Below, in pieces: positions 1,387-37,000 of a DNA stretch of 46,376 nucleotides. The position numbers and the translations under genes are program-made. Each line of letters begins with the position of its first letter. Within the stretch, counting starts at the first letter, position 1. A model generated the notes under the pieces. The model made no database searches. It was not told the DNA's origin and was given only the letters and a program-made list of their open reading frames with translations. The stretch lies in assembly GCA_016793095.1 (NCBI GenBank), contig JAEUJQ010000014.1:1-46376 (forward strand). Reading direction: 5' to 3'. The DNA comes from Myxococcaceae bacterium (lineage in GTDB: Bacteria > Myxococcota > Myxococcia > Myxococcales > Myxococcaceae).

Positions 1387-2967
1387 ATGGGGCTCGCTGA
1401 CATTCCCGCGGTCGGCTGGGTGCGCGCGCCGGCGCCCATCACGCGGCTCGAGGGCCTCGCGCGACACCTCGGCCTCGACGCGCTCGACGTGAAGCGGGAC
1501 GACCTGCTCGACGCGCTCCACGGCGGCAACAAGGCGCGCAAGCTCGACGTGCTGCTCGCCACGCCGCCCTTCCGGGACGCGCCGCGGTTTGCGTCGGTCG
1601 GGGCCATCGGCAGCGGCCACCTCGCCGCCTGCACCGCTGCTGCGTCGGCGCTCGGGAAGACGCTCGACGCGCACCTCTTCTGCGAGCCGCTCTCGGCCGG
1701 CGTGCTCGAGAACCTGGCCTTCGTCGCGTCGGGACCCACGACGCTCTTCGCCTACGCCAATCGGCTCAGGCTCGCGCTCTCACGGCCGGCGGTCCTCCTG
1801 GCTCCTGCCATCGACGGAGTGCCCGTCATTCCCCCGGGCGGCACGCTGCCTCCCGCGGTCGCGGGCATCGCGCGCGCCGGGCTCGAGCTGGCGGCGCAGG
1901 TGCAGGCCGGCGCCCTCGCGTCCCCCGACGTCGTGTACTGCGCGCTCGGCACCGGCGGCACCGTGGCGGGCCTCGCGCTGGGCCTCGGCCTCGCAGGCGT
2001 GAAGACGGAGCTTCGCGCGGTGGCCACCGTCGAGCGGCTCTTCACCTCGCGCCGCGCGCTGCGGAAGCTCATCGCCCAGACAGCGGCGTGGCTGCGCGCC
2101 CAGGGCGTCGACGCAGACGAGCGTAAGGCGGTGCCGATCCGCCTCGTGCGCAACCAGCTCGGCGCCGGCTACGGCATCGCGAGCGCGCAGTCCCTCGCCG
2201 CCGTCGAGGTGCTGCGGGCCGAGGGCGTGCCCATCGAGCCCATCTACACGGGCAAGGCGTTCGCGGCGCTGCTGGCCGACGCGGCCGCGGGGCGGGCTCC
2301 GAAGCGGGTGCTGTTCTGGAGCACCGTGCGCCGCGGGCCGCTCCCCTGCGACCCTCACTGGCGCGCGCGGCTGCCTCCGCTGCTGGCCCGCGCCATCGAC
2401 CGCTCCACCACGCGCCCCTCGCGCCGGCTCGTCCTCGCCGGTGGCCTGGCCGTCGGCGGGGCCGCCACCATCGCGCGCCTCACGGGCTACGCGCCGGTGT
2501 CGTGGTCGGGGCAGGTGCTGTCGGCGCCCGAGGCGCTGGTGCTCGCGAGCGCGGCGCCGGTGCTCACGGGTGTTCAGGGCCTCGACGGCCTGAGCGTCGC
2601 CGCCGCGGTGGACCGCTTCCTGGTGCCGCTGCCCCCCTCGATGAAGCTGGAGATCCACGGGCTGCTCGCGCTCGTCGAGCACGGCACGGGGCTGGGGCTG
2701 CAGGTGCGCCGCTTCACCACGCTCGCGCCCGACGCGCAGGAGGCCTTCCTGCTCTCGCTCAACGCGCGCGGTGGCCTGCTGGCTCAGGCCTTCCGCGGCC
2801 TGCGCGACCTCGTGCTGATGGGCACCTACCAGCAGGACCGCAGCTGGTCGGGCATCGGCTACGCGGGCCCGTTCCCTCCGATGATGACGCCAGAGCTGGT
2901 GAACCTGCCGTACGACTCGTTCCGCGCGGCGCCTGGCGCGGTGCCGTCGAGGAAAGCCGCGCGATGA
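1387..2967 (+). CDS. Fusion of a fold-type II PLP enzyme with a gluconate 2-dehydrogenase subunit 3-like domain
   Basis: Residues 1 to about 325 resemble D-cysteine desulfhydrase/ACC deaminase-type PLP enzymes. The GGNKARKL motif carries the likely Schiff-base lysine (K49), and a glycine-rich phosphate loop ALGTGGTVAG lies at 186-195. The family motif usually reading QSNH is GSGH here (75-78), so a conserved cofactor-contacting Asn is missing. Residues about 340-526 look like the small gamma subunit of membrane-bound gluconate 2-dehydrogenase: a twin-arginine segment SRRLVLAGG, then Leu-rich helices and a closing WSGIGYAGP motif. That subunit normally is a separate Tat-exported protein partnering a GMC flavoprotein, which is exactly the next gene. 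No stop or ATG separates the halves; an in-frame GTG at 2326 with GGAG at 2318-2321 could allow internal initiation. The stop overlaps the next ATG (ATGA at 2964-2967). Confidence 0.75.
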   Translation: MGLADIPAVGWVRAPAPITRLEGLARHLGLDALDVKRDDLLDALHGGNKARKLDVLLATPPFRDAPRFASVGAIGSGHLAACTAAASALGKTLDAHLFCEPLSAGVLENLAFVASGPTTLFAYANRLRLALSRPAVLLAPAIDGVPVIPPGGTLPPAVAGIARAGLELAAQVQAGALASPDVVYCALGTGGTVAGLALGLGLAGVKTELRAVATVERLFTSRRALRKLIAQTAAWLRAQGVDADERKAVPIRLVRNQLGAGYGIASAQSLAAVEVLRAEGVPIEPIYTGKAFAALLADAAAGRAPKRVLFWSTVRRGPLPCDPHWRARLPPLLARAIDRSTTRPSRRLVLAGGLAVGGAATIARLTGYAPVSWSGQVLSAPEALVLASAAPVLTGVQGLDGLSVAAAVDRFLVPLPPSMKLEIHGLLALVEHGTGLGLQVRRFTTLAPDAQEAFLLSLNARGGLLAQAFRGLRDLVLMGTYQQDRSWSGIGYAGPFPPMMTPELVNLPYDSFRAAPGAVPSRKAAR

Positions 2968-3020
2968 TCTTCGAGGCGAGCACCTTCCAGAGCGCGGTGA
3001 CGAGGACGGCCGCCCGATGA
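2964..3020 (+). other. Micro-ORF 1 of the duplicated start (18 aa)
   Basis: It begins with the oxidoreductase-like start MIFEASTFQSAV and runs directly into T-R-T-A-A-R-stop. It overlaps the upstream stop and the next start by ATGA on both sides. It is probably not a functional peptide, but it keeps translation coupled. Confidence 0.4.
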
Positions 3021-3277
3021 TCTTCGACGCGAGTCGCTCGGCCTCGTGGTGGTGGGCTCGCGCGCGGTGCCGACGAGGAGGGCCGCCCGATCGTCTTCGA
3101 GGCGAGGACCTTCAAGCGCGCGGTGACGCTCGGACTCGTGGTGGTGGGCTCGCGCGCGGTGCCGACGAGGAGGGCCGCCCGCTCGTCTTCGAGGCGAGCA
3201 CCTTCAAGAGCGCGGTGACGCTCGGACTCGTGGTGGTGGGCTCGCGCACGGTGCCGACGAGGAGGGCCGCCCGATGA
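3017..3277 (+). other. Micro-ORF 2 of the duplicated start (86 aa, merged units)
   Basis: It starts as MIFDAS, loses the oxidoreductase frame through a deletion in this unit, reads across two units whose ATG has become ATC or CTC, and regains the original frame at V-F-E-A-S-T-F-K. It ends in V-P-T-R-R-A-A-R-stop with an ATGA overlap at 3274-3277. Frame restoration across three units keeps the coupling chain intact. Confidence 0.4.
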
Positions 3278-3369
3278 TCTTCGACGCGAGCACCTTCAAG
3301 AGCGCGGTGACGCTCGGACTCGTGGTGGTGGGCTCGCGCGCGGTACCGACGAGAAGGGCCGCGCGATGA
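3274..3369 (+). other. Micro-ORF 3 of the duplicated start (31 aa)
   Basis: It encodes the oxidoreductase N-terminus up to VVVGS followed by the copied tail of the upstream gene, and ends with ATGA at 3366-3369. A GAGGAGG-type ribosome binding site precedes it. It lacks the two residues' worth of sequence (E-T/D-L region) present in the intact gene. Confidence 0.4.
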
Positions 3370-3464
3370 TCTTCGACGCGAGCACCTTCAAGAGCGCCGT
3401 GACGCTCGAGACCGACCTCGTGGTGGTGGGCTCGGGCGCGGTGACGAGGAGGACCGCCCGATGA
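3366..3464 (+). other. Micro-ORF 4 of the duplicated start (32 aa)
   Basis: This is the copy closest in sequence to the intact gene, including ETDLVVVGSGA of the FAD-binding loop. It then joins into V-T-R-R-T-A-R-stop and overlaps the real start by ATGA at 3461-3464. It is likely the most recent duplication. Confidence 0.4.
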
Positions 3465-4975
3465 TCTTCGACGCGAGCACCTTCAAGAGCGCCGTGACCC
3501 TCGAGACCGACCTCGTGGTGGTGGGCTCGGGCGCGGGCGGCATGGCGGCGGCGATGGCGGCAGCGGAGCGCGGCGTCGAGACCCTCGTCCTCGAGGGGGG
3601 GGAGTACCTGACGCCGGCGGACATGAGCCAGCGCGAGGAGCAGATGTTCCCCCGGCTGCTGCAGGAGTCCGGCAGCCGCACCACCGTCGACCGCGCGGTG
3701 AAGCTGTACCAGGGCCGCGGCGTCGGCGGCTCGACGCTGCACAACCTGAACCTGTGCAAGCGCATCCCCCTGGGGCTGCGCGAGGGCTGGCGCCGCGAGC
3801 ACGGCCTGTCGAAGCTGCCGGCCGAGCGGTGGGACGCGCTGTACGCCGAGGTGGAGCAGCTACTGTCGGTCTCTGCCGTGCCGCGCGAGCAGTGGAGCCG
3901 TCACAACCAGCTGCTCGCCGAGGGCGTGGCGAAGCTGGGCTGGAAGGGCGGGGGCCTGTCGCACAACCGCACCGGCTGCATCGGCTCGGGCTTCTGCGAG
4001 GTGGGCTGCCGGTACAACGCGAAGAACAACGCGCTCAAGGTGCTGCTGCCGCGCGCGCTCGCGGCCGGGGCGCAGGTGGTGTGCAACTGCGTGGCCGTGC
4101 GGGTGGTGCACGAGGGCGGGGCGGCCCGTGGCGTCGAGGCCGTCGCCATCGACCCGGTGACCCGCGCGCCGCTCGGGGCCGTCACTATCAAGGCGAAGCG
4201 CGTGTGCCTCTCGGCGTCGGCCACCGGCACGGCCGCGCTGCTCCTGCGCTCGAGCGTGCCCGACGCGAGCGGTGTCACCGGCACCACCCTGCGCGTGCAC
4301 CCTGCGGTAGTGGCGGCCGGCGACTTCGACGAAGAGGTGAAGGCCTGGCAGGGCATTCCGCAGACGTACGAGTGCACCGAGCTCCTCGACCTCGAGGACC
4401 CGTCCGGGCACCGCGCGTGGATTCTGCCGGCCTTCGCGCACCCCATCGGCACCGCCACCATGGTGCCGGGGCACGGCGCCGCCCACCGCGCGCTGATGGA
4501 GCGCTACCCGCACCTCGGCGTCTTCACCGCGATGATCCACGACCTCGCGCCCGGGCGGGTGCGGCCGCGCGGCGACTTCGGCGTGGCCATCGAGTCGTGG
4601 CCGGACGAGGCCGATCGCGCCGAGCTCATGCTGGGGCTGTGGGCCTGCGCGAAGCTGCTCTTCGCTGCCGGGGCGAGGCGCGTGCTGGTGCCCTCTCGCG
4701 TCCCGCGGGTGCTGGAGCCGGGCGACGACCTGGACTTCCTCAAGACGATGCCGCTCGAGAAGGGCGAGCTCGACGTCGTCGCGGTGCACCCGATGTCCAG
4801 CGTGCCCATGGGCGACGACCCGAAGCGCGCGCCGGTGGGCAGCGACGGCAAGCACCACTCGTGCGAGAACCTGTGGGTCGCCGACGGCTCGCTGTTCCCC
4901 AGCAGCATCGGCGTGCCGCCGCAGCTGTCCATCTACGCGATGGGCCTGCACGTGGGCCGCGCGCTCGCCGGCTGA
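3461..4975 (+). CDS. GMC-family FAD-dependent oxidoreductase
   Basis: The 504-residue protein begins with the Rossmann FAD-binding strand and loop VVVGSGAGG (19-27) and an acidic end of the second strand (LEGGEY). RGVGGSTLHN (86-95) is the GMC signature region. The C-terminus has the expected catalytic His segment VHPMSS (H443) and the closing GVPPQLSIYAMG block, where the second catalytic His/Asn position of the family reads as Pro. A Cys cluster (C173, C179, C183) occurs in the substrate domain, as in alcohol-oxidase and gluconate/sorbitol dehydrogenase-like members. There is no signal peptide. Together with the subunit 3-like domain encoded just upstream it suggests a membrane-associated sugar or alcohol dehydrogenase. 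ATG at 3461 is chosen because GAGGAGG lies just upstream and the protein aligns from here; the same start is copied six times upstream. Confidence 0.88.
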   Translation: MIFDASTFKSAVTLETDLVVVGSGAGGMAAAMAAAERGVETLVLEGGEYLTPADMSQREEQMFPRLLQESGSRTTVDRAVKLYQGRGVGGSTLHNLNLCKRIPLGLREGWRREHGLSKLPAERWDALYAEVEQLLSVSAVPREQWSRHNQLLAEGVAKLGWKGGGLSHNRTGCIGSGFCEVGCRYNAKNNALKVLLPRALAAGAQVVCNCVAVRVVHEGGAARGVEAVAIDPVTRAPLGAVTIKAKRVCLSASATGTAALLLRSSVPDASGVTGTTLRVHPAVVAAGDFDEEVKAWQGIPQTYECTELLDLEDPSGHRAWILPAFAHPIGTATMVPGHGAAHRALMERYPHLGVFTAMIHDLAPGRVRPRGDFGVAIESWPDEADRAELMLGLWACAKLLFAAGARRVLVPSRVPRVLEPGDDLDFLKTMPLEKGELDVVAVHPMSSVPMGDDPKRAPVGSDGKHHSCENLWVADGSLFPSSIGVPPQLSIYAMGLHVGRALAG

Positions 4976-5078
4976 GTCCTGGCGCGCTCGCCCTGGCCCG
5001 ACGGGCATGAGGCCGCCCGCGAGCCGCTTCGCCAGCGCTGAGCCCACACGGTTGACGCCGCCCGGGGAACGAGGCGCA

Positions 5079-14914: not shown

Positions 14915-14925
14915 AGTCCGGGCGC

Positions 14926-15210
14926 CGTGCCGCGACTTCATCGCGGCGGAGTGTGAACGGCGACGGGGAGCAGGGCGCGCGCTCGTGCCGTGACTTCATC
15001 GCGGCGGAGTGTGAACGGCGACCGGGACGGGGAGCAGGGCGCGCTCGTGCCGTGACTTCATCGCGGCGGAGTGTGAACGGCGACCCGGACGGGGAGCAGG
15101 GCGCGCGCTCGTGCCGTGACTTCATCGCGGCGGAGTGTGAACGGCGACGGGGAGCAGGGCGCGCGCTCGTGCCGTGACTTCATCGCGGTGGAGTGTGTAC
15201 CGGTGACGCG
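14926..15210 (+). repeat. Tandem array A, about 60-nt unit with a hairpin, about 4.7 copies
   Basis: Units begin at 14926, 14984, 15046, 15110 and 15168 (58, 62, 64, 58 nt, last one partial). Each contains CCGCGActtcaTCGCGG or CCGTGActtcaTCGCGG: a 6-bp stem with a 5-nt loop, retained through a G-T wobble in the later copies. It is followed by a constant GGAGTGTGAACGGCG segment. The array begins directly after the stop of the lipoprotein operon and is not part of a convincing gene in any frame. It could act as transcription-terminator-like or REP-like structure. Confidence 0.85.
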
Positions 15211-15240
15211 CCCCTCCGTCGTCAGCCGGCCCTCCAGCAG

Positions 15241-15861
15241 GCGCGAGTGCCGCCAGGAGCCTGCACCGACGCCGGCGTCTTCACCCAGCGCGACGCCTTC
15301 GGGTCGAACCCCCCCAGCTTCTGCAGCTCGCGGTCGCCGTGTCGGACGCGCAGCATCAGGCGCGAGGCGCGAGTGCCGCCATTCTTCCGCACCGACGCCG
15401 GCGTCTTCACCCAGCTCGACGTCTTCGGATCGACCCCCCAGCTTCTGCAGCTCGCGGTCGCCGTGTCGGACGCGGAGCATCAGGCGCGAGTGCCGCCAGG
15501 AGCCCGCACCGACGCCGGCGTCTTCACCCAGCTCGACGTCTTCGGGTCGAACCCCCCAGCTTCTGCAGCTCTCGCCGTGTCGCACGCGCGGCATCAGGCG
15601 CGAGTGCCGCCAGGAGCCTGCACCGACGCCGGCGTCTTCACCCAGCTCGACGCCTTCGGCCGAACCCCCCAGCTTCCTGTCGTGCGAGCCTGAGTGCAGC
15701 TCGCGGTCGCCGTGTCGCACGCGCGGCATCAGGCGCGAGGCGTGAGTGCCGCCAGGAGCCCGCACCGACGCCGGCGTCTTCACCCAGCTCGACGTCTTCG
15801 GGTCGAACCCCCCAGCTTCTGCAGCTCGCGGTCGCCGTGTCGGACGCGCAGCATCAGGCGC
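15241..15861. repeat. Tandem array B, about 114-142 nt unit, five copies
   Basis: Units begin at 15241, 15367, 15484, 15598 and 15740, and are unrelated to array A. Each holds the perfect 12-bp palindrome GACGCCGGCGTC (first copies at 15268-15279 and 15394-15405), a run of six or more C (GAACCCCCC) and a CAGCTTCTGCAGCTC block, partly deleted in unit 4. Frames are open on both strands but shift between units with the C-run length, so coding is unlikely. The two arrays fill almost all of the gene-free stretch 14915-15895. Confidence 0.85.
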
Positions 15862-15895
15862 GGTCACGCTGGAGGCCGGCCCGGCCAGGTGACCG

Positions 15896-27256: not shown

Positions 27257-30142
27257 ATGCTGAATCGACTCATCGTCATCGGGAGTAGTGCGGTGATCGC
27301 TGCATGCAGCGATGGACCACCGCGCTGCGATTCAGGATGCCCCACTGGAACGCGCTGCGATCCGACAACGAACCTCTGCGTTCGAAATGAAGGAGACGAT
27401 GGGGGCGTCGCGGGTGGTTCGGCCGCCGGTGGTTCAGCCGCGGGTGGCTCAACCGCTGGCGGTTCAACCGCTGGCGGTTCAACCGCTGGTGGCTCAACCG
27501 CTGGTGGTTCAACTGCTGGTGGTTCAACCGCTGGTGGTTCAACCGCTGGTGGTTCAACTGCTGGTGGTTCAACTGCTGGTGGTTCAACTGCTGGTGGTTC
27601 AACCGCTGGTGGTTCAACCGCTGGTGGTTCAACCGCTGGTGGTTCAGCGGGCGGGGGCGCTGTCATTCCTGCGCCAGTCTTCACGCTGGTGACGCCTGCC
27701 TCTGGAGTCGCCGTAGGCGGGGCCATGACGCAGCTCTCTGGTGGCCTGACGGTCAGCCCCGGCCGGGAGGTAACGATGGCTTCGCTCGACCTCGGGGGTG
27801 GGCAGAGCCTCCCGCTCTCCATCGCCGGCAACACCTGGTTCGTGACCATCCCCCTCCCTGCGGGCATCGAGAGCCAGCGGACTCTCACGATCACGGCGCT
27901 CGACGCGTCCGGTATGACCTCCATGTCGATGGTCGTGATCAGCATCGACACCCTCGGGCCGCGCCTCTCCCTCACTCAGCCTCAGTCGACGACGGCGGTG
28001 GGGACCACGGCCTTGCTGGCGGGTACGGCGATCGATCCTGCGACTCCTCTGGCCGTCTCGGTGGACGTCGGAGGCGACGCCGGAGTGCAAGCCGCAACCG
28101 TGGACGGAGGTGCCTGGCAACGCACGGTCGGCTTTCCGAGCGGCTTCGACCGTGTCATTCGAGCCGTGACGCTCTCGGCCGTCGACGCGCTGGGAAACAG
28201 CACCTCGACCACGGCGAATGTCCTGGTCGATACCCAGGGCCCAACCCTCACCCTCCTCAGCCCTGCGAGCGGCGTCGCAGTGACCTCGCCGGCGACGCTC
28301 TCGGGGACGGCGACCGATCCTTCGGGCCCAGTGACGGGACTCACCATCGACTTCGGAACGGGGCCAAGCAGCGTCGCCCTCACCGGCACGACCTGGACGT
28401 CCAACGCGACGTTTCCCCCGAACCTCAACCGGGTGTTGCGACCGGTCAGCCTGCAAGCCGCTGACGCCCTGGGCAACATGACCCAGACGACCGTACAGGT
28501 GATGGTGGATACCCAGGGGCCGGTGCTCAGCGCGACCTGGGCCCCGGCAGCACCACGGACCGTCTCCTTCGGTGGGGCTGACTTCAGAGACCCGACCGAG
28601 GTGGCGGGCGGCTCCGCGCTCTTCAGGCGTCATGACAACCTCGCGGTGACCGTGCAGTCGCCAAGTGCAGACCTTGCTCCAGCGACGGTCGAGGTCGTCG
28701 TCGGGGGGAGTCGGGTCTCTGCAAGCACGGGCAGCGCCTGCGGCTCTGACGGAGGCTTCTGCCGCACCGTGTCCGTGTCGTTGTCCACGCCGCCGCTTCC
28801 CGGCCTTCGCGGCTCGATGGCCGTTCAAGCACTCGGCGCGGACCTGCTCGGCAACCCGACGACACTGGACGCTGGCACAGTCACGGTGAGTCGATGGGGC
28901 TTTCAATACGACGGTGGCTCCCCGCTCAACGGCTTCTCGGTCTCGAGCGCGGGTGAGTTGATCATCCCGCACGCTGGCCACAGTCAGATCTACGTGCTCA
29001 GGGCGGACGGAACCCGGCTCATTTCGTGGGGAACGCGGTACCCGTCAGCAATCTATGTCGCCGTCGGGCAGGTCTCCGAACGAACGTTGGGGCGCTTCAT
29101 CTATGCGTTCGAGCGGGGCGCGGCGGACGCGACCTACGGCGAGGCGTTCCGGCTCGACTCCATGATCGCCAGTCCGGTCCAGTGGACGAACGATGCCACG
29201 CGCGCCTCGAGCTCCGCGCTCGGGCCCGTCCTTCGCGTCGATCCCACCAACGGAGAGGAAGAGGTCGCGATGCTGTACCGCGCCCCGAACGGCAAGCCCG
29301 CCGCAGTCTGGGCGGCGCTCGTCCGTGCGAGCGGGGCAGCCCAGTTCGGGACTCGGGTCGCGACGCCGTCGAGTCTGAACATCGGCGCGACGATCCAGAG
29401 CGTCGTGGCGACGGGAGGGGTCATCACCGCCACCGACGGGGCCTCGCTCTTCAGCTTCGGCGGGAGTCAACCGATCAACCTGCTGTTTCTGGAAGAGCGT
29501 GGGGTCCCGTTCCTGCAGACTCCGGGGTCCTTCATCGCAGTGCAGAACCTGATCGGTCTTCCCTCCAACGAGGTGATGGGCGTCGGCCGGGCCGCGTCGC
29601 TCGCGTACGGGTTCTTCAGCGCGACGTTCCCCTCGACGTTCACTCCCAGCTTCGCGCAGTTCAGCGAGCTGGTGAGCTCCCCACTGTCGAAGGGGGGAGT
29701 CGTCTACCTCGTGGCCACCGATACCTCGACCTACGTCGGCCGGCTGTGTCGGACCACCCTCCTGGCTTCGGTTCACACCTGCACTGTCGATCCTGGGGAG
29801 TCGATTCAGAACGCCATCGCGCTCGGCGAGGGCGACACGCTCTATGACATCGCGCTTCGTCCCCCATCGCAGCAGGCGCTGCTGCAGGTCCGCTCAGCGA
29901 GCACCCTGCAGCTTCGCTGGGAGAGCCCGCTCCCGGGCACGGTCGGGCAATGTCTGGGGTTGACGCCGACGTGCATCAACGGCGTGCCGGTCGTGGGCTG
30001 TGTGGACCTTCAGGGTCGAATCATCTTCCTTCAGACCGATGCACGAGGCATCGACACGACGGCCGAGTGGCCCATGCTCGGCCACGATCCGGGGACGACC
30101 TGGAACCAGACCACCCCGCTGACCCCGTTCGCGTGCCCCTGA
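27257..30142 (+). CDS. Ig-repeat lipoprotein with an expanded GGSTA linker
   Basis: The 961-residue lipoprotein has lipobox AVIAAC (C17); ATG at 27257 follows GAGGAGA. A short Cys segment (CDSGCPTGTRCDPTTNLC) precedes about 80 residues of GGSAA/GGSTA linker. Then come about three Ig-like domains with strikingly similar openings (VTPASGVAVGG; SLTQPQSTTAVG; LLSPASGVAV), each followed by a DALGN-type hinge and a D-T-Q/L-G-P joint. The C-terminal 500 residues look propeller-like (SVSSAGELIIPHAGHSQIYVL, with regularly spaced strand motifs). It is likely a surface protein; the function is unknown. It converges with a minus-strand gene that ends 13 nt away. Confidence 0.8.
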   Translation: MLNRLIVIGSSAVIAACSDGPPRCDSGCPTGTRCDPTTNLCVRNEGDDGGVAGGSAAGGSAAGGSTAGGSTAGGSTAGGSTAGGSTAGGSTAGGSTAGGSTAGGSTAGGSTAGGSTAGGSTAGGSTAGGSAGGGAVIPAPVFTLVTPASGVAVGGAMTQLSGGLTVSPGREVTMASLDLGGGQSLPLSIAGNTWFVTIPLPAGIESQRTLTITALDASGMTSMSMVVISIDTLGPRLSLTQPQSTTAVGTTALLAGTAIDPATPLAVSVDVGGDAGVQAATVDGGAWQRTVGFPSGFDRVIRAVTLSAVDALGNSTSTTANVLVDTQGPTLTLLSPASGVAVTSPATLSGTATDPSGPVTGLTIDFGTGPSSVALTGTTWTSNATFPPNLNRVLRPVSLQAADALGNMTQTTVQVMVDTQGPVLSATWAPAAPRTVSFGGADFRDPTEVAGGSALFRRHDNLAVTVQSPSADLAPATVEVVVGGSRVSASTGSACGSDGGFCRTVSVSLSTPPLPGLRGSMAVQALGADLLGNPTTLDAGTVTVSRWGFQYDGGSPLNGFSVSSAGELIIPHAGHSQIYVLRADGTRLISWGTRYPSAIYVAVGQVSERTLGRFIYAFERGAADATYGEAFRLDSMIASPVQWTNDATRASSSALGPVLRVDPTNGEEEVAMLYRAPNGKPAAVWAALVRASGAAQFGTRVATPSSLNIGATIQSVVATGGVITATDGASLFSFGGSQPINLLFLEERGVPFLQTPGSFIAVQNLIGLPSNEVMGVGRAASLAYGFFSATFPSTFTPSFAQFSELVSSPLSKGGVVYLVATDTSTYVGRLCRTTLLASVHTCTVDPGESIQNAIALGEGDTLYDIALRPPSQQALLQVRSASTLQLRWESPLPGTVGQCLGLTPTCINGVPVVGCVDLQGRIIFLQTDARGIDTTAEWPMLGHDPGTTWNQTTPLTPFACP
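27413..27652 (+). repeat. Near-identical 15-nt coding repeat (GGSTA)
   Basis: About 13 GGSTA units, flanked by two GGSAA and one GGSA unit, use almost one sequence, GGTGGTTCAACYGCT, where Y is C or T. Other GGS arrays here use G/C-ending codons (tcg, acg), while this one uses AT-leaning ggt, tca and gct. The C/T alternation is mosaic between units. Low divergence suggests recent slippage or gene-conversion expansion. Confidence 0.9.
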
Positions 30143-34097: not shown

Positions 34098-37000
34098 TCA
34101 TGCCTGGCGCGCCATCTCAGCCCTGCGCCGTCGGCGAAGGAGAGCGAGCGAGAGGAGCGCGAACAGACCGTCACCACCCCCGCGGCAGCCGCAACCGCCT
34201 CCCTGACCTGGGGCGCCTCCGCCCACCGGCTCAGTCGCGGCGCCTCCCGCCGTCGCAGAACCGCCAGCCGTCACAGAACCGCCCGCCGTCGCGGAGCCAC
34301 CCGCCGTCGCGGAGCCACCGGCCGTCGCGGAGCCACCCGCCGTCGCAGAACCGCCCGCCGTCGCCGAGCCACCCGCCGTCGCGGAGCCACCCGCCGTCGC
34401 CGACCCGCCCGCCGTCGCCGAGCCACCCGCCGTCGCGGAGCCACCCGCCGTCGCAGAACCGCCCGCCGTCGCCGAGCCACCGGCCGTCGCCGAGCCACCC
34501 GCCGTCGCCGAACCGCCAGCCGTCGCAGAGCCGCCCGCCGTCGCCGAGCCACCTGCCGTCGCAGAACCGCCCGCCGTCGCGGAGCCACCGGCCGTCGCCG
34601 AGCCACCCGCCGTCGCGGAGCCACCCGCCGTCGCCGAGCCACCCGCCGTCGCCGAGCCACCCGCCGTCGCCGAGCCACCTGCCGTCGCAGAACCGCCCGC
34701 CGTCGCCGAGCCACCGGCCGTCGCGGAGCCACCGGCCGTCGCGGAGCCACCCGCCGTCGCAGACCCGCCCGCCGTCGCCGAGCCACCGGCCGTCGCCGAG
34801 CCACCCGCCGTCGCCGAACCGCCAGCCGTCGCCGAGCCGCCCGCCGTCGCGGAGCCGCCCGCTGCTGACCCGCCAGCCGTCGCGGAGCCACCCGCCGTCG
34901 CGGCGCCGCCCGCTGCTGACCCGCCAGCCGTCGCGGAGCCACCCGCCGTCGCCGAGCCACCCGCTGTCGCGGAGCCACCCGCTGTCGCGGAGCCACCGCC
35001 TGCAGAGCCACCTGCCGTCGCGGAGCCACCTGCCGTCGCCGAGCCGCCCGCCGTCGCGGAGCCACCCGCCGTCGCCGAGCCGCCCGCCGTCGCGGAACCA
35101 CCCGCCGTCGCGGAGCCGCCCGCCGTCGCCGAGCCGCCCGCCGTCGCCGAGCCGCCCGCCGTCGCCGAGCCGCCCGCCGCCCCGCCACCGCTCCCGCCAG
35201 CGAGCACCGTGATGGAGACCACCTCAGGCGCCGAATCCTGGGTCCCGTCGTTGGCCAGGTACCTGAACGAGTCGGCCCCGGTGAACCCCACCGCCGGGCG
35301 GTAGGTCACGTTGGGAGGCGTACCGGTCAGGGCGCCATTCATCGGCGGCGTGACGATCGCGAACGTGAGCGGGTCGTTCTCCGCGTCGTTGCCGCTGAGC
35401 TGGATCGCGACCGGCACGTTCTCGGTCGTGACGTAGTCGAGGCGATCGGCGACCGGCGGATCGTTGACCGGCGTGACCGTGATCGACACCGTCGCCGGCA
35501 ACGAGTTCACCGTGCCGTCGTTCACCCGGAACGTGAAGCTGTCGGGCCCGCTCGTGTCTGCGTCTGGCGTGTATGTCACGTTCGGCGGCGTCCCTGACAG
35601 CGAGCCGTTGGCGGGCTCTCCGACGATCTCGAACGTCAGCGGGTTTCCGTCCGGGTCCGACGCGGTGAGGACGATCGCGACCGGCGTGTCCTCGGCGGTC
35701 GTGACGCTCTGCGCGTTCGCCGTCGGGCGCCTGTTCGTCGTCGCCACGACGAGGGTGATCGTCGCTGGAGCCGAGTCCACCGTGCCGTCGTTCACCTTGA
35801 ACACGAGGCTGTCGACCCCGACGTAGCCCGCCGCCGGCGTGTAGAGCAGGGACGGGGCCGTGCCCGACAGCGCGCCGTGGCTCGGGCCCGAGACGACACT
35901 GTACGTGAGCGCGTCGCCATCGGCGTCCGACGCCGTCAGGCCCACCATCACCGGCGCGTTCACGCTCGTCTCGACCGTCGCGGCGTTCGCCACCGGCGCG
36001 TCGTTCACCGGCACCACCGTGAGCGAGATGGCCGCTGGCGCCGAGTAGGCCAGGTGATCGAATGCGCGGAACGTGAAGGTGTCGGACCCGTGGTAGTTGC
36101 CCGCCGGCACGTAGGTCAGGTTGGGCGGTGTCCCGGACAGGCTGCCGTGCGCAGGCGGAGTCACCACCTCGTAGATCAGCGTCGTGTCGTCCACGTCCGT
36201 CGCGCTGAGCGTCACCGCCACCGGCGTGTCCTCCGGCGTCGTCACCGTTTGCGGGGTCGCGACCGGCGGATCGTTCACCCGGCTCACCGCGAGCGAGATG
36301 GTGGCGACCGCCGAATCGACGAAGCCGTCGTTGACCTTGAAGGTGAACCAGTCGGCCCCGCCGAAGTCCGGGTCAGGCGTGTAGGTGAGGTTCGGTGGCG
36401 TCCCTGAGAGCGTCCCGTGGAAGGTGGGGGAGATGATCGTCCAGGTGAGCGGGTCGTTGTCTGCGTCGCTGGCGGTCAACGTCACCACCGCGGGAGTGTC
36501 TTCGGTCACCTGCACGATCGCTGACTGGGCAACCGGGGCCTCGGTGTCGAGGAAGCGCAGCGTCTCGACGCGGGTCGCGCGCAGCGTCGGCGCCGGGTCG
36601 AAGGCGCTCCGGGCCACCAGACAGCGCCGCGAGGGCACACAGGCCAGCGCGCCAGTGCCAATCGGCGACGGGTCATCGACCACCGTGAGCTGCACATCCA
36701 CCCGCGTGCCGTCTGGAGTCACCCGCACACCCATGAGATCGGTGTTCGCGTTGCGGTCGTCTTCCCAGATGGTCACGAAGTGGCGCCCGTTCCAGGCCGT
36801 CACGGGCGCGCGCCGGGCAGATCCGCCCGCGAAGCCGAGCGAGATGGGGCCCTGGACCAGCGTGCCTGCGGTGGACCAGCGCGCGCCCTGGATCGACTCG
36901 TTCCCCGCGTCGTCGCGCTGCCAGGCGAGGAAATACTGGGCGCCATCGGAGGCGAGCGAGGGCTGCGCGTGATTGCCGAGGCCCGGCGTGAGGTTGAACA

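Follow-up and report, generated by a model that had tools for sequence, protein, structure and literature searches.

The closest described parallel to the structure reported here is provided by the mycobacterial MIRUs between senX3 and regX3, where, as in our array, short tandem units occupy an operon gap and carry an ORF that overlaps its neighbour at -4 nt. Excerpts of the published work give unit lengths of 77 and 53 bp, and report that these MIRUs also drive senX3-independent expression of regX3 (PMC4213456). By our own arithmetic both lengths are 2 mod 3, the same condition as in the junction arrays described below. An earlier note on this DNA, made from the sequence alone, knew of no described multiplied coupling signal, a statement that the senX3-regX3 MIRUs contradict; these leads apart, there was no multiplied coupling junction among the literature matches listed, and we do not claim a wider absence. 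MIRUs, however, form a dispersed, presumably mobile family, whereas the junction arrays of the present genome each derive from their own two genes and are unrelated in sequence. A search of its own genome (40 of 239 first-look candidates scored) found no dispersed homologous units at unrelated junctions for our array.

Termination-reinitiation at NTGA overlaps, which according to an excerpt of PMC6728339 often needs an internal Shine-Dalgarno sequence, involves the same -4 nt overlap, but there each gene pair has one stop-start and here several stand in series. Short overlaps of this kind are enriched among partner subunits (excerpt of PMC10666635). The TAACTGA repeats of Beggiatoaceae are short direct repeats just before gene starts, with a suggested translational role (excerpt of PMC4679880), but these heptamers, unlike the junction arrays, contain neither start codons nor relay ORFs. 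Bacterial minisatellites (VNTRs) are, like the arrays here, diverged tandem arrays with units of tens to hundreds of bp and many occurrences per genome; the unit of our array differs from an ordinary minisatellite in holding a complete stop-Shine-Dalgarno-start signal. In GCN4-type systems the ribosome re-initiates past several short upstream ORFs to reach the main ORF, which is serial re-initiation as would apply here, but it involves a eukaryotic scanning subunit regulated by the supply of initiation factors, and the ORFs are not copies of a junction.

The window, i.e. the whole stretch of DNA analysed, is 46,376 nucleotides long. The features of the junction are the following.

1387..2967, + strand: upstream gene, an ORF with a PLP-dependent enzyme domain in residues 14-311 (Pfam PF00291, E 1.1e-24)
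2935..3536, + strand: whole tandem junction array, seven copies (repeat families, anchors, TRF)
2935..2941, + strand: GGCGCGG within the upstream gene's tail; putative founding duplication, first end
2964..3020, + strand: micro-ORF 1, 18 aa, copy 1, beginning in the ATGA that closes the upstream gene
3017..3277, + strand: micro-ORF 2, 86 aa, beginning in copy 2 and ending at the ATGA of copy 5
3090..3093, + strand: copy 3, start-stop lost (reads ATCG), Shine-Dalgarno kept, hybrid energy -11.8 kcal/mol
3123..3218, + strand: alternative ORF from GTGA to GTGA, 31 aa, within copies 3 and 4
3182..3185, + strand: copy 4, start-stop lost (reads CTCG), Shine-Dalgarno kept, hybrid energy -11.8 kcal/mol
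3274..3369, + strand: micro-ORF 3, 31 aa, copy 5
3366..3464, + strand: micro-ORF 4, 32 aa, copy 6
3461..4975, + strand: GMC-type FAD oxidoreductase, an ORF of 504 aa (PF00732, E 1.6e-30; PF05199, E 6.1e-18)
3530..3536, + strand: GGCGCGG where the GxGxxG of the oxidoreductase is encoded; putative founding duplication, second end

The TGA of the upstream gene sits within the first ATGA of the array (2964). The Pfam search gave no match for the C-terminal part of this gene, for which 'subunit 3' is the label of the earlier note only. Position 3461 is the true start of the oxidoreductase: it is conserved, and alignments with close relatives begin at residue 1 or 2.

The earlier note had proposed that the junction was tandemly duplicated about six times. 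TRF (3035-3536, period 92, 5.4 copies, score 735), repeat families and anchors agree on the multiplication, which makes the array a minisatellite in the usual sense of a tandem array of similar units, and the repeat families and anchors refine the count to seven copies in all. The ATG-equivalents of the copies lie at 2964, 3017, 3090, 3182, 3274, 3366 and 3461, and the steps between them, as placed by repeat families and anchors, are 53, 73, 92, 92, 92 and 95 nt. Relative to the full unit, copy 1 lacks about 42 nt and copy 2 lacks 19 nt; copy 6 retains 6 nt absent from the 92-nt units. ATGA is kept in five copies, at exactly the positions read in the note (2964, 3017, 3274, 3366, 3461). The chain of consecutive ORFs from 1387-2967 through the four micro-ORFs to 3461-4975 proved unbroken, each start overlapping the preceding stop by ATGA; the units are also diverged, as had been claimed, since the seven copies all differ and the longest exact repeat inside the array is 54 nt. 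The GTGA-to-GTGA ORF might provide a second restart path.

Every copy has a Shine-Dalgarno sequence, with hybrid energies of -4.9 to -11.8 kcal/mol, compared with a median of -2.8 at random positions (n=2,400). For the last copy the value is -11.3 kcal/mol, and the median of 212 -4 junctions is -6.6. The junction has two marks of a coupled pair, namely a 4-nt stop/start overlap and a Shine-Dalgarno sequence inside the upstream frame.

We regard the array at the PLP-enzyme/oxidoreductase junction as lineage-specific, because the junction is single (NTGA) and free of a junction array in 11/11 related loci examined (L013-L023; a twelfth, L024, only 30% identical, was left out). The earlier note had named single junctions in related genomes, together with a single unit in long reads of this strain, as what would refute its proposal, and for the relatives this is what we found. 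In 10 of these 11 loci the upstream stop falls within the NTGA at the aligned oxidoreductase start; in the eleventh, L019, it lies in frame 15 nt before it. Two of the loci contain short repeats of their own: a 30-bp, 2.1-copy one within the upstream gene's tail but clear of the start in L018, and a 24-bp one further up in L020.

In our view, to which we assign a probability of roughly 0.6, the array is a lineage-specific minisatellite at a translationally coupled junction, where coupling would be kept by arithmetic and no regulatory function needs to be invoked. It would have started with a 98-nt tandem duplication between in-phase GGCGCGG words. The words themselves are observed: they form a 7-nt in-phase match, 98 nt apart when the tail at copy 1 is joined to the head of the true gene, and the nearest relative, L013 (84% protein identity), has the same pair 98 nt apart in unduplicated form, which fits a founding event by microhomology (worked out for this array, one of the six discussed below). 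With a 4-nt NTGA overlap, all duplications between sites at the same codon position have lengths of 2 mod 3, so that, as the sequence dictates, the oxidoreductase frame of one copy becomes the upstream frame of the next and closes precisely at the next ATGA. Growth to seven copies came with the point mutations and small indels visible today, and a frameshift jumps copies and then rejoins the chain (visible at 3017-3277). Two things probably made the array tolerable: stop-restart would still carry a ribosome from the upstream gene to the oxidoreductase, and the last copy brings a strong Shine-Dalgarno sequence of its own.

Frame arithmetic also bears on the two lost ATGs. With 73 nt (1 mod 3) as the step from copy 2 to copy 3, the frame opened at 3017 (micro-ORF 2) runs out of register through copies 3 and 4, where an ATGA would act as neither stop nor start, and it closes at the TGA of copy 5, since 73+92+92 = 257 is 2 mod 3. 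The frame around the lost ATGs is indeed open, as the earlier note observed, but no selection is needed to have kept it so, because the 73-nt step shifts the frame past them. Off-frame stops are rare in the genes of this genome (0.7 and 2.2% of codons; G+C 71% in an 843-kb sample). Some points speak against our reading. Of the indels in the array, those measuring 3, 6 and about 42 nt preserve the frame, and the 19-nt one alone does not. In addition, starts are retained just where the chain makes use of them and lost at the two copies that it skips. This pattern also fits a constraint on the chain, although weakly, since it amounts to one or two events.

The same repeat-rich genome (G000) did likewise at five further junctions, found in 2,026,857 bp (2.03 Mb, 23%) of its sequence: MBL-ZnuA, ZnuA-ATPase, glycosyltransferase-LpxK, nitrate-reductase-delta-like-ferredoxin and one unnamed pair. 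Their repeat periods are 62, 107, 122, 110 and 68, every one 2 mod 3. It must be noted that the six arrays were collected after the pattern had been seen, using a gene finder of our own making; if six per 2.03 Mb holds, extrapolation gives about 26 junction arrays in the whole genome of 8.81 Mb. Chance does not account for the PLP-enzyme/oxidoreductase chain: chains made entirely of ATGA with at least two micro-ORFs occur in 4 of 1,071 codirectional gene pairs of the sampled 2.03 Mb, and the 402 pairs sampled from four relatives have none. Three of the four lie in tandem arrays, the PLP-enzyme/oxidoreductase chain being the longest, and the fourth (two micro-ORFs, C4 891-967) is without a TRF array. 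Under loose rules that admit GTGA, TTGA, 1-nt overlaps and lone micro-ORFs as well, chance alone often yields unbroken chains (66/442 array-free gaps of 41-600 nt). Their excess in gaps of this size with arrays (9/18, Fisher p 0.0007), another point against our reading, is largely due to the units themselves carrying NTGA.

The phase of the repeats brings in the strongest rival of this minisatellite reading, a selection filter that we consider unlikely but worth weighing. It holds that duplications of any length arise and mainly those of 2 mod 3 survive, other lengths uncoupling the downstream gene or sending an out-of-frame ribosome over its start; the relay would be maintained without being adaptive. 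The six junction arrays, all 2 mod 3, would have a chance of 0.0014 under equal phases, and the phases 0/1/2 of arrays are 15/1/10 in codirectional against 6/4/6 in convergent gaps. ZnuA and its ABC ATPase, encoded at one of the affected junctions, are partners in one transporter. In addition, native coupling in E. coli was almost gone at a gap of +38 nt according to an excerpt of PMC10666635, so an insert of 92 nt ought to impair coupling if it is not read itself. But at 212 array-free -4 junctions word matches between tail and head are already 2 mod 3 in 60, 66, 71, 72 and 76% of cases for 6, 7, 8, 9 and 10 nt, so that in-phase microhomology alone (66-76%) raises the chance of six out of six to 0.08-0.19 (7- and 10-nt shares), or 0.05 with the 6-nt share. 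Copy by copy the phase is looser, with 15 of 20 start-to-start steps in the six arrays 2 mod 3, three 0 and two 1. Since in-phase microhomology itself favours 2 mod 3, selection is not shown; an argument for it from phase alone was left unproven after this control, and six cases are too few to tell the two apart. What emerges is a simple rule: duplications over a -4 overlap preserve coupling when they are 2 mod 3 in length, and such lengths are exactly the ones favoured by codon-phase microhomology. The 77- and 53-bp MIRUs would conform to this rule as well.

The earlier note offered two options, a neutral, slippage-prone junction, which the evidence favours, and an adjustment of stoichiometry, which found no support. 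In the latter, a doubtful proposition, unit number would set or vary the ratio of oxidoreductase to upstream protein through successive re-initiation, possibly with slippage as a switch. The unbroken all-ATGA chain of four micro-ORFs and the Shine-Dalgarno sequence in every copy are what such a device would have, and two or three senX3-regX3 MIRU copies occur in BCG strains (excerpt of PMC9392950). The array is, however, conserved in none of the relatives examined. As for phase variation, frame arithmetic predicts that a whole 92-nt unit gained or lost would still leave an NTGA chain, so that an on/off switch would not be expected. The micro-ORF peptides look unconstrained in a small sample: in four of the six arrays (seven comparisons; the C89 62-bp and C65 arrays left out) the 17 changes in micro-ORF heads fall 9/3/5 by codon position, with 3 synonymous and 12 non-synonymous codons. 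The head of the real oxidoreductase, by comparison, gives 2/3/12 against L013 (9 synonymous, 4 non-synonymous), 7/6/13 against L016 (9 and 7) and 2/3/9 against L017 (9 and 4). In view of the missing third-position excess we rule against the micro-ORFs as small proteins, on these few changes. RNA structure at the five starts is ordinary (z -1.1 to +0.7 against mononucleotide shuffles), and the named affected genes lack an obvious common theme.

Gene ends without a start (C65 14421, 84 bp; C79 177363) and convergent intergenic DNA are multiplied too, which also speaks against a regulatory device. Arrays per 10 kb of gap number 2.6 in codirectional, 4.9 in convergent and 1.9 in divergent gaps, so that arrays do not single out coupled genes. 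In a broader proposal, coupled junctions would be self-preserving duplication targets, in-phase microhomology and a 4-nt overlap together yielding duplications that restore their own stop-restart chain; this lineage would then have about two dozen serial relays, with partner-protein ratios set by the number of units and changed through slippage. This is about as doubtful as the regulatory reading of the single locus, perhaps marginally less so. The array offers natural constructs with serial stop-restart signals, four micro-ORFs with spacers of 18 to 86 codons, which would directly test the loss per re-initiation and the distance dependence of coupling; on the latter, published results conflict (PMC10666635, PMC12548453).

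An assembly artefact, or a repeat collapsed or expanded, is very improbable: the window is a whole contig with repeats at both its ends, but the longest exact repeat of 54 nt is resolvable by k-mers of at least 55, and the seven copies differ. In other arrays (C9, C89 107-bp) exact repeats reach 91 and 100 nt, and there the unit number could be off. Still harder to credit is the insertion of a dispersed, mobile MIRU-type unit at start codons, for in spite of the like anatomy (tandem units with each ORF coupled at -4 nt) the array units are copies of the junction's own tail and head, a genome search with 154 nt of the array returned eight matches of which six lie within the array itself and the others are 61 nt at 77% (C79) and 27 nt at another GMC gene start (C30), no array unit was found in another array (whole-genome search, 40/239 first-look candidates scored), and the six arrays share only 18-24-nt matches (inter-array blastn, 26 rows).

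Several candidates were not counted among the six: C43 57942, which is a dispersed repeat; C76 156938, where a start is preceded by two identical copies of 44 bp; C89 180920 and C14 4160, where the genes do not overlap and the gene start is multiplied in units of about 75 bp; and the multiplied gene ends C65 14421 and C79 177363. No junction relay array was seen in the controls G005, G006, G016 and G028 (752,882 bp), where 2.2 were expected at the G000 rate (chance of none 0.11). Array density is similar in G006 and G000 (59 vs 57 per Mb), and uniqueness of G000 is not claimed; out-of-phase arrays number 26/116 in G000 against 1/27 in the controls (Fisher p 0.03). The LpxK junction array is found in G000 only: of 24 relatives' loci, the 22 that are readable, including four within the genus, lack a second copy of the junction, with several starts outside the genus being estimates; L176 (too near a contig end) and L175 (no start where expected) were left out. 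Away from the junction, a 144-bp repeat of 1.8 copies lies 442-706 nt upstream of the start in L172.

The junction between the genes of a PLP-dependent enzyme and a GMC oxidoreductase is present in seven tandem copies (2935-3536), separated by steps of 53, 73, 92, 92, 92 and 95 nt:

1387-2967, + strand, PLP-dependent enzyme gene, upstream (PF00291)
3461-4975, + strand, GMC oxidoreductase gene, downstream (PF00732/PF05199)

The repeated unit is made up of some 29 nt from the end of the upstream gene, with the Shine-Dalgarno sequence in it, the ATGA, and an oxidoreductase head segment of at most about 69 nt. ATGA is retained at 2964, 3017, 3274, 3366 and 3461; the copies at 3090 and 3182 have ATCG and CTCG. 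By ORF reading, the relay of stops (2967, 3020, 3277, 3369, 3464, 4975) is unbroken, and a second possible path leads through GTGA at 3123 and 3215. All-ATGA chains of two or more micro-ORFs are rare: there were four among 1,071 codirectional pairs sampled in this genome (8.81 Mb in 93 contigs, of which C48 equals the window), three of them in arrays, and none among 402 sampled in four relatives. In the named collection the close matches of the oxidoreductase are from metagenome genomes labelled Myxococcales, Myxococcaceae, Myxococcota or Deltaproteobacteria. Directly 3' of the oxidoreductase stop lies a dispersed repeat of about 65-77 bp (4970-5046), with 56 matches listed in the genome, frequently as short tandem runs (e.g. 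on contigs C69, C86, C63, C89 at 40709 and C76 at 186184).

The array was absent from all 11 related loci compared (L013-L023), each of which has one NTGA at the oxidoreductase start holding the upstream stop; L019 is exceptional in its placing, the stop lying 15 nt ahead of the aligned start. This comparison leaves out a twelfth locus (L024, 30% identical), and L009, L010, L011 and L025 are, judged partly by coordinates, repeat copies of four of the eleven. The upstream tail and the oxidoreductase head have GGCGCGG in common, 98 nt apart and in the same codon position, and the same pair stands unduplicated, also 98 nt apart, in the nearest relative (L013). In the alignment, a 98-nt unit minus 6 nt of head gives 92 nt, and minus 3 nt of tail 95 nt. 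L018 has a small repeat (30 bp, 2.1 copies, about 4929-4990) in the upstream-gene tail, right before its single junction.

With a 4-nt overlap and a step of 2 mod 3, the downstream frame of one copy becomes the upstream frame of the next, and then terminates at the following copy's ATGA. The steps of 53, 92 and 95 nt have such a length; a loss of 19 nt makes the 73-nt step the exception. The chain is intact past this step because the frame from 3017 traverses copies 3 and 4 out of register, so that an ATGA there would neither end translation nor begin it, and terminates at copy 5. The skipped copies are exactly the two without ATGA, which could reflect constraint on the copies in use; given the variants common to both, the two losses may have been a single event.

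Five further arrays with the junction inside the unit and a chain reaching the next gene were found by stop-restart tracing:

C89, 62 bp, metallo-beta-lactamase-fold gene to ZnuA (within C89:163491-164959; L057 3491-4959)
C89, 107 bp, ZnuA to its ABC ATPase (same interval)
C9, 122 bp, glycosyltransferase to LpxK (C9:4662-5104; L143); four copies in 122-bp steps, three 41-codon all-ATGA micro-ORFs
C76, 110 bp, nitrate-reductase-delta-like gene to 4Fe-4S protein; GTGA, GTGA, TTGA
C65, 68 bp, gene pair without Pfam names

The zinc-uptake operon on C89 has two junctions multiplied, with differing units. The six arrays share at most 18-24 nt pairwise. No second copy of the LpxK junction was seen in the 22 readable relatives' loci (24 examined). 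At C76 the proteins of three of three relatives align from the residue at which the last copy starts, which supports this copy as the true start. The survey covered a convenience sample of 2,026,857 bp from a single assembly, including the window (23% of the genome), with 1,697 genes and 225 pairs overlapping by 4 nt; gene starts rest on a self-trained gene finder written for this analysis. TRF (period at least 24, score at least 90) detected 116 arrays.

Arrays by phase (0/1/2) in the sample, TRF
Inside genes: 54/0/0
Codirectional gaps: 15/1/10
Convergent gaps: 6/4/6
Divergent gaps: 9/0/2
Contig edges: 6/2/1

What seems worth passing on is the phase rule, and the wider result that six junctions are multiplied within about a quarter of one genome; the four control genomes total 752,882 bp, too small to call this genome exceptional.

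All six junction arrays have periods of 2 mod 3, as do 15 of the 20 steps between copies (three are 0, two are 1). The phase is no proof of selection, because codon-phase microhomology alone makes 2 mod 3 common. At 212 array-free junctions with the 4-nt overlap, tail-head word matches at 40-130 nt were 2 mod 3 in 60% (6 nt), 66% (7), 71% (8), 72% (9) and 76% (10) of cases, and within genes 70-94% of word matches were 0 mod 3. With the 7- and 10-nt shares, the chance of six out of six is 0.08 to 0.19, for arrays collected after the pattern had been seen. The phase can be explained by such microhomology, whose founding words were worked out for the window array; selection is not demonstrated but may have played a part.

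That the arrays are a purpose-built device is harder to maintain: codirectional gaps, although denser in arrays than divergent ones (1.9 per 10 kb), are less dense than convergent ones (2.6 vs. 4.9), gene ends are also multiplied on their own (C65 14421, C79 177363), and the 17 changes in the micro-ORF heads of four arrays fall 9/3/5 by codon position (3 synonymous, 12 non-synonymous codons). For the real gene head against L013 the figures are 2/3/12, with 9 synonymous and 4 non-synonymous codons.

In E. coli, according to a study available in part (PMC10666635), native coupling is almost gone once the gap measures +38 nt, and it needs no more of the upstream gene than the last 15 nt; the available part of a review (PMC12548453) cites studies with weaker distance effects. 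If the strong effect holds, the oxidoreductase would lose its coupling across an untranslated gap of 493 nt; the relay would then reopen a route to it, though some ribosomes would be lost with every hop. The predicted Shine-Dalgarno energy is -11.3 kcal/mol at the last copy and -5.9 at copy 1 (six relatives, -6.8 to -10.8). Given this strong site of its own, the last copy could equally possibly be initiated independently or be fed by the relay.

The earlier note was aware of no published case of a coupling signal multiplied in tandem, but the MIRUs are one, as far as the partial texts of three sources go (PMC12548453, PMC4213456, PMC9392950). According to the review, MIRU insertion at start codons leaves a MIRU ORF coupled with a spacing of -4 nt; between senX3 and regX3 lie three MIRUs of 77 bp, or two of 77 bp and one of 53 bp (PMC4213456), and BCG strains have two or three there (PMC9392950). 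Judged from its sequence, the window array would work as a MIRU array does, but it is not one, its units deriving from its own junction. A multiplied coupling signal is already known from MIRUs; new here are units built from the junction itself.

Repeats also occur outside coupled junctions. C65:14421-14587 and C79:177363-177807 are tandem repeats of gene ends, with units of about 68-84 bp and 51 bp respectively that do not include the next gene's start. At C14:4160-4447 (L148), where the two genes do not overlap, units of about 75 bp repeat a gene start with its Shine-Dalgarno sequence. Two diverged arrays of the window share one convergent gap, 14922-15197 (58 bp) and 15238-15870 (about 114 bp; TRF end 15676, extending further by eye), and no coding role was seen for either. 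Both contig ends (1-239 and 45940-46371) consist of similar short G+C-rich repeats, the left one encoding Gly-Ser-Thr-Ala repeats, and these may have caused the contig to break. Two tandem arrays have periods that are multiples of three, at 27409-27646 (15 bp, 15.9 copies) and 34234-35179 (18 bp, 53.1 copies).
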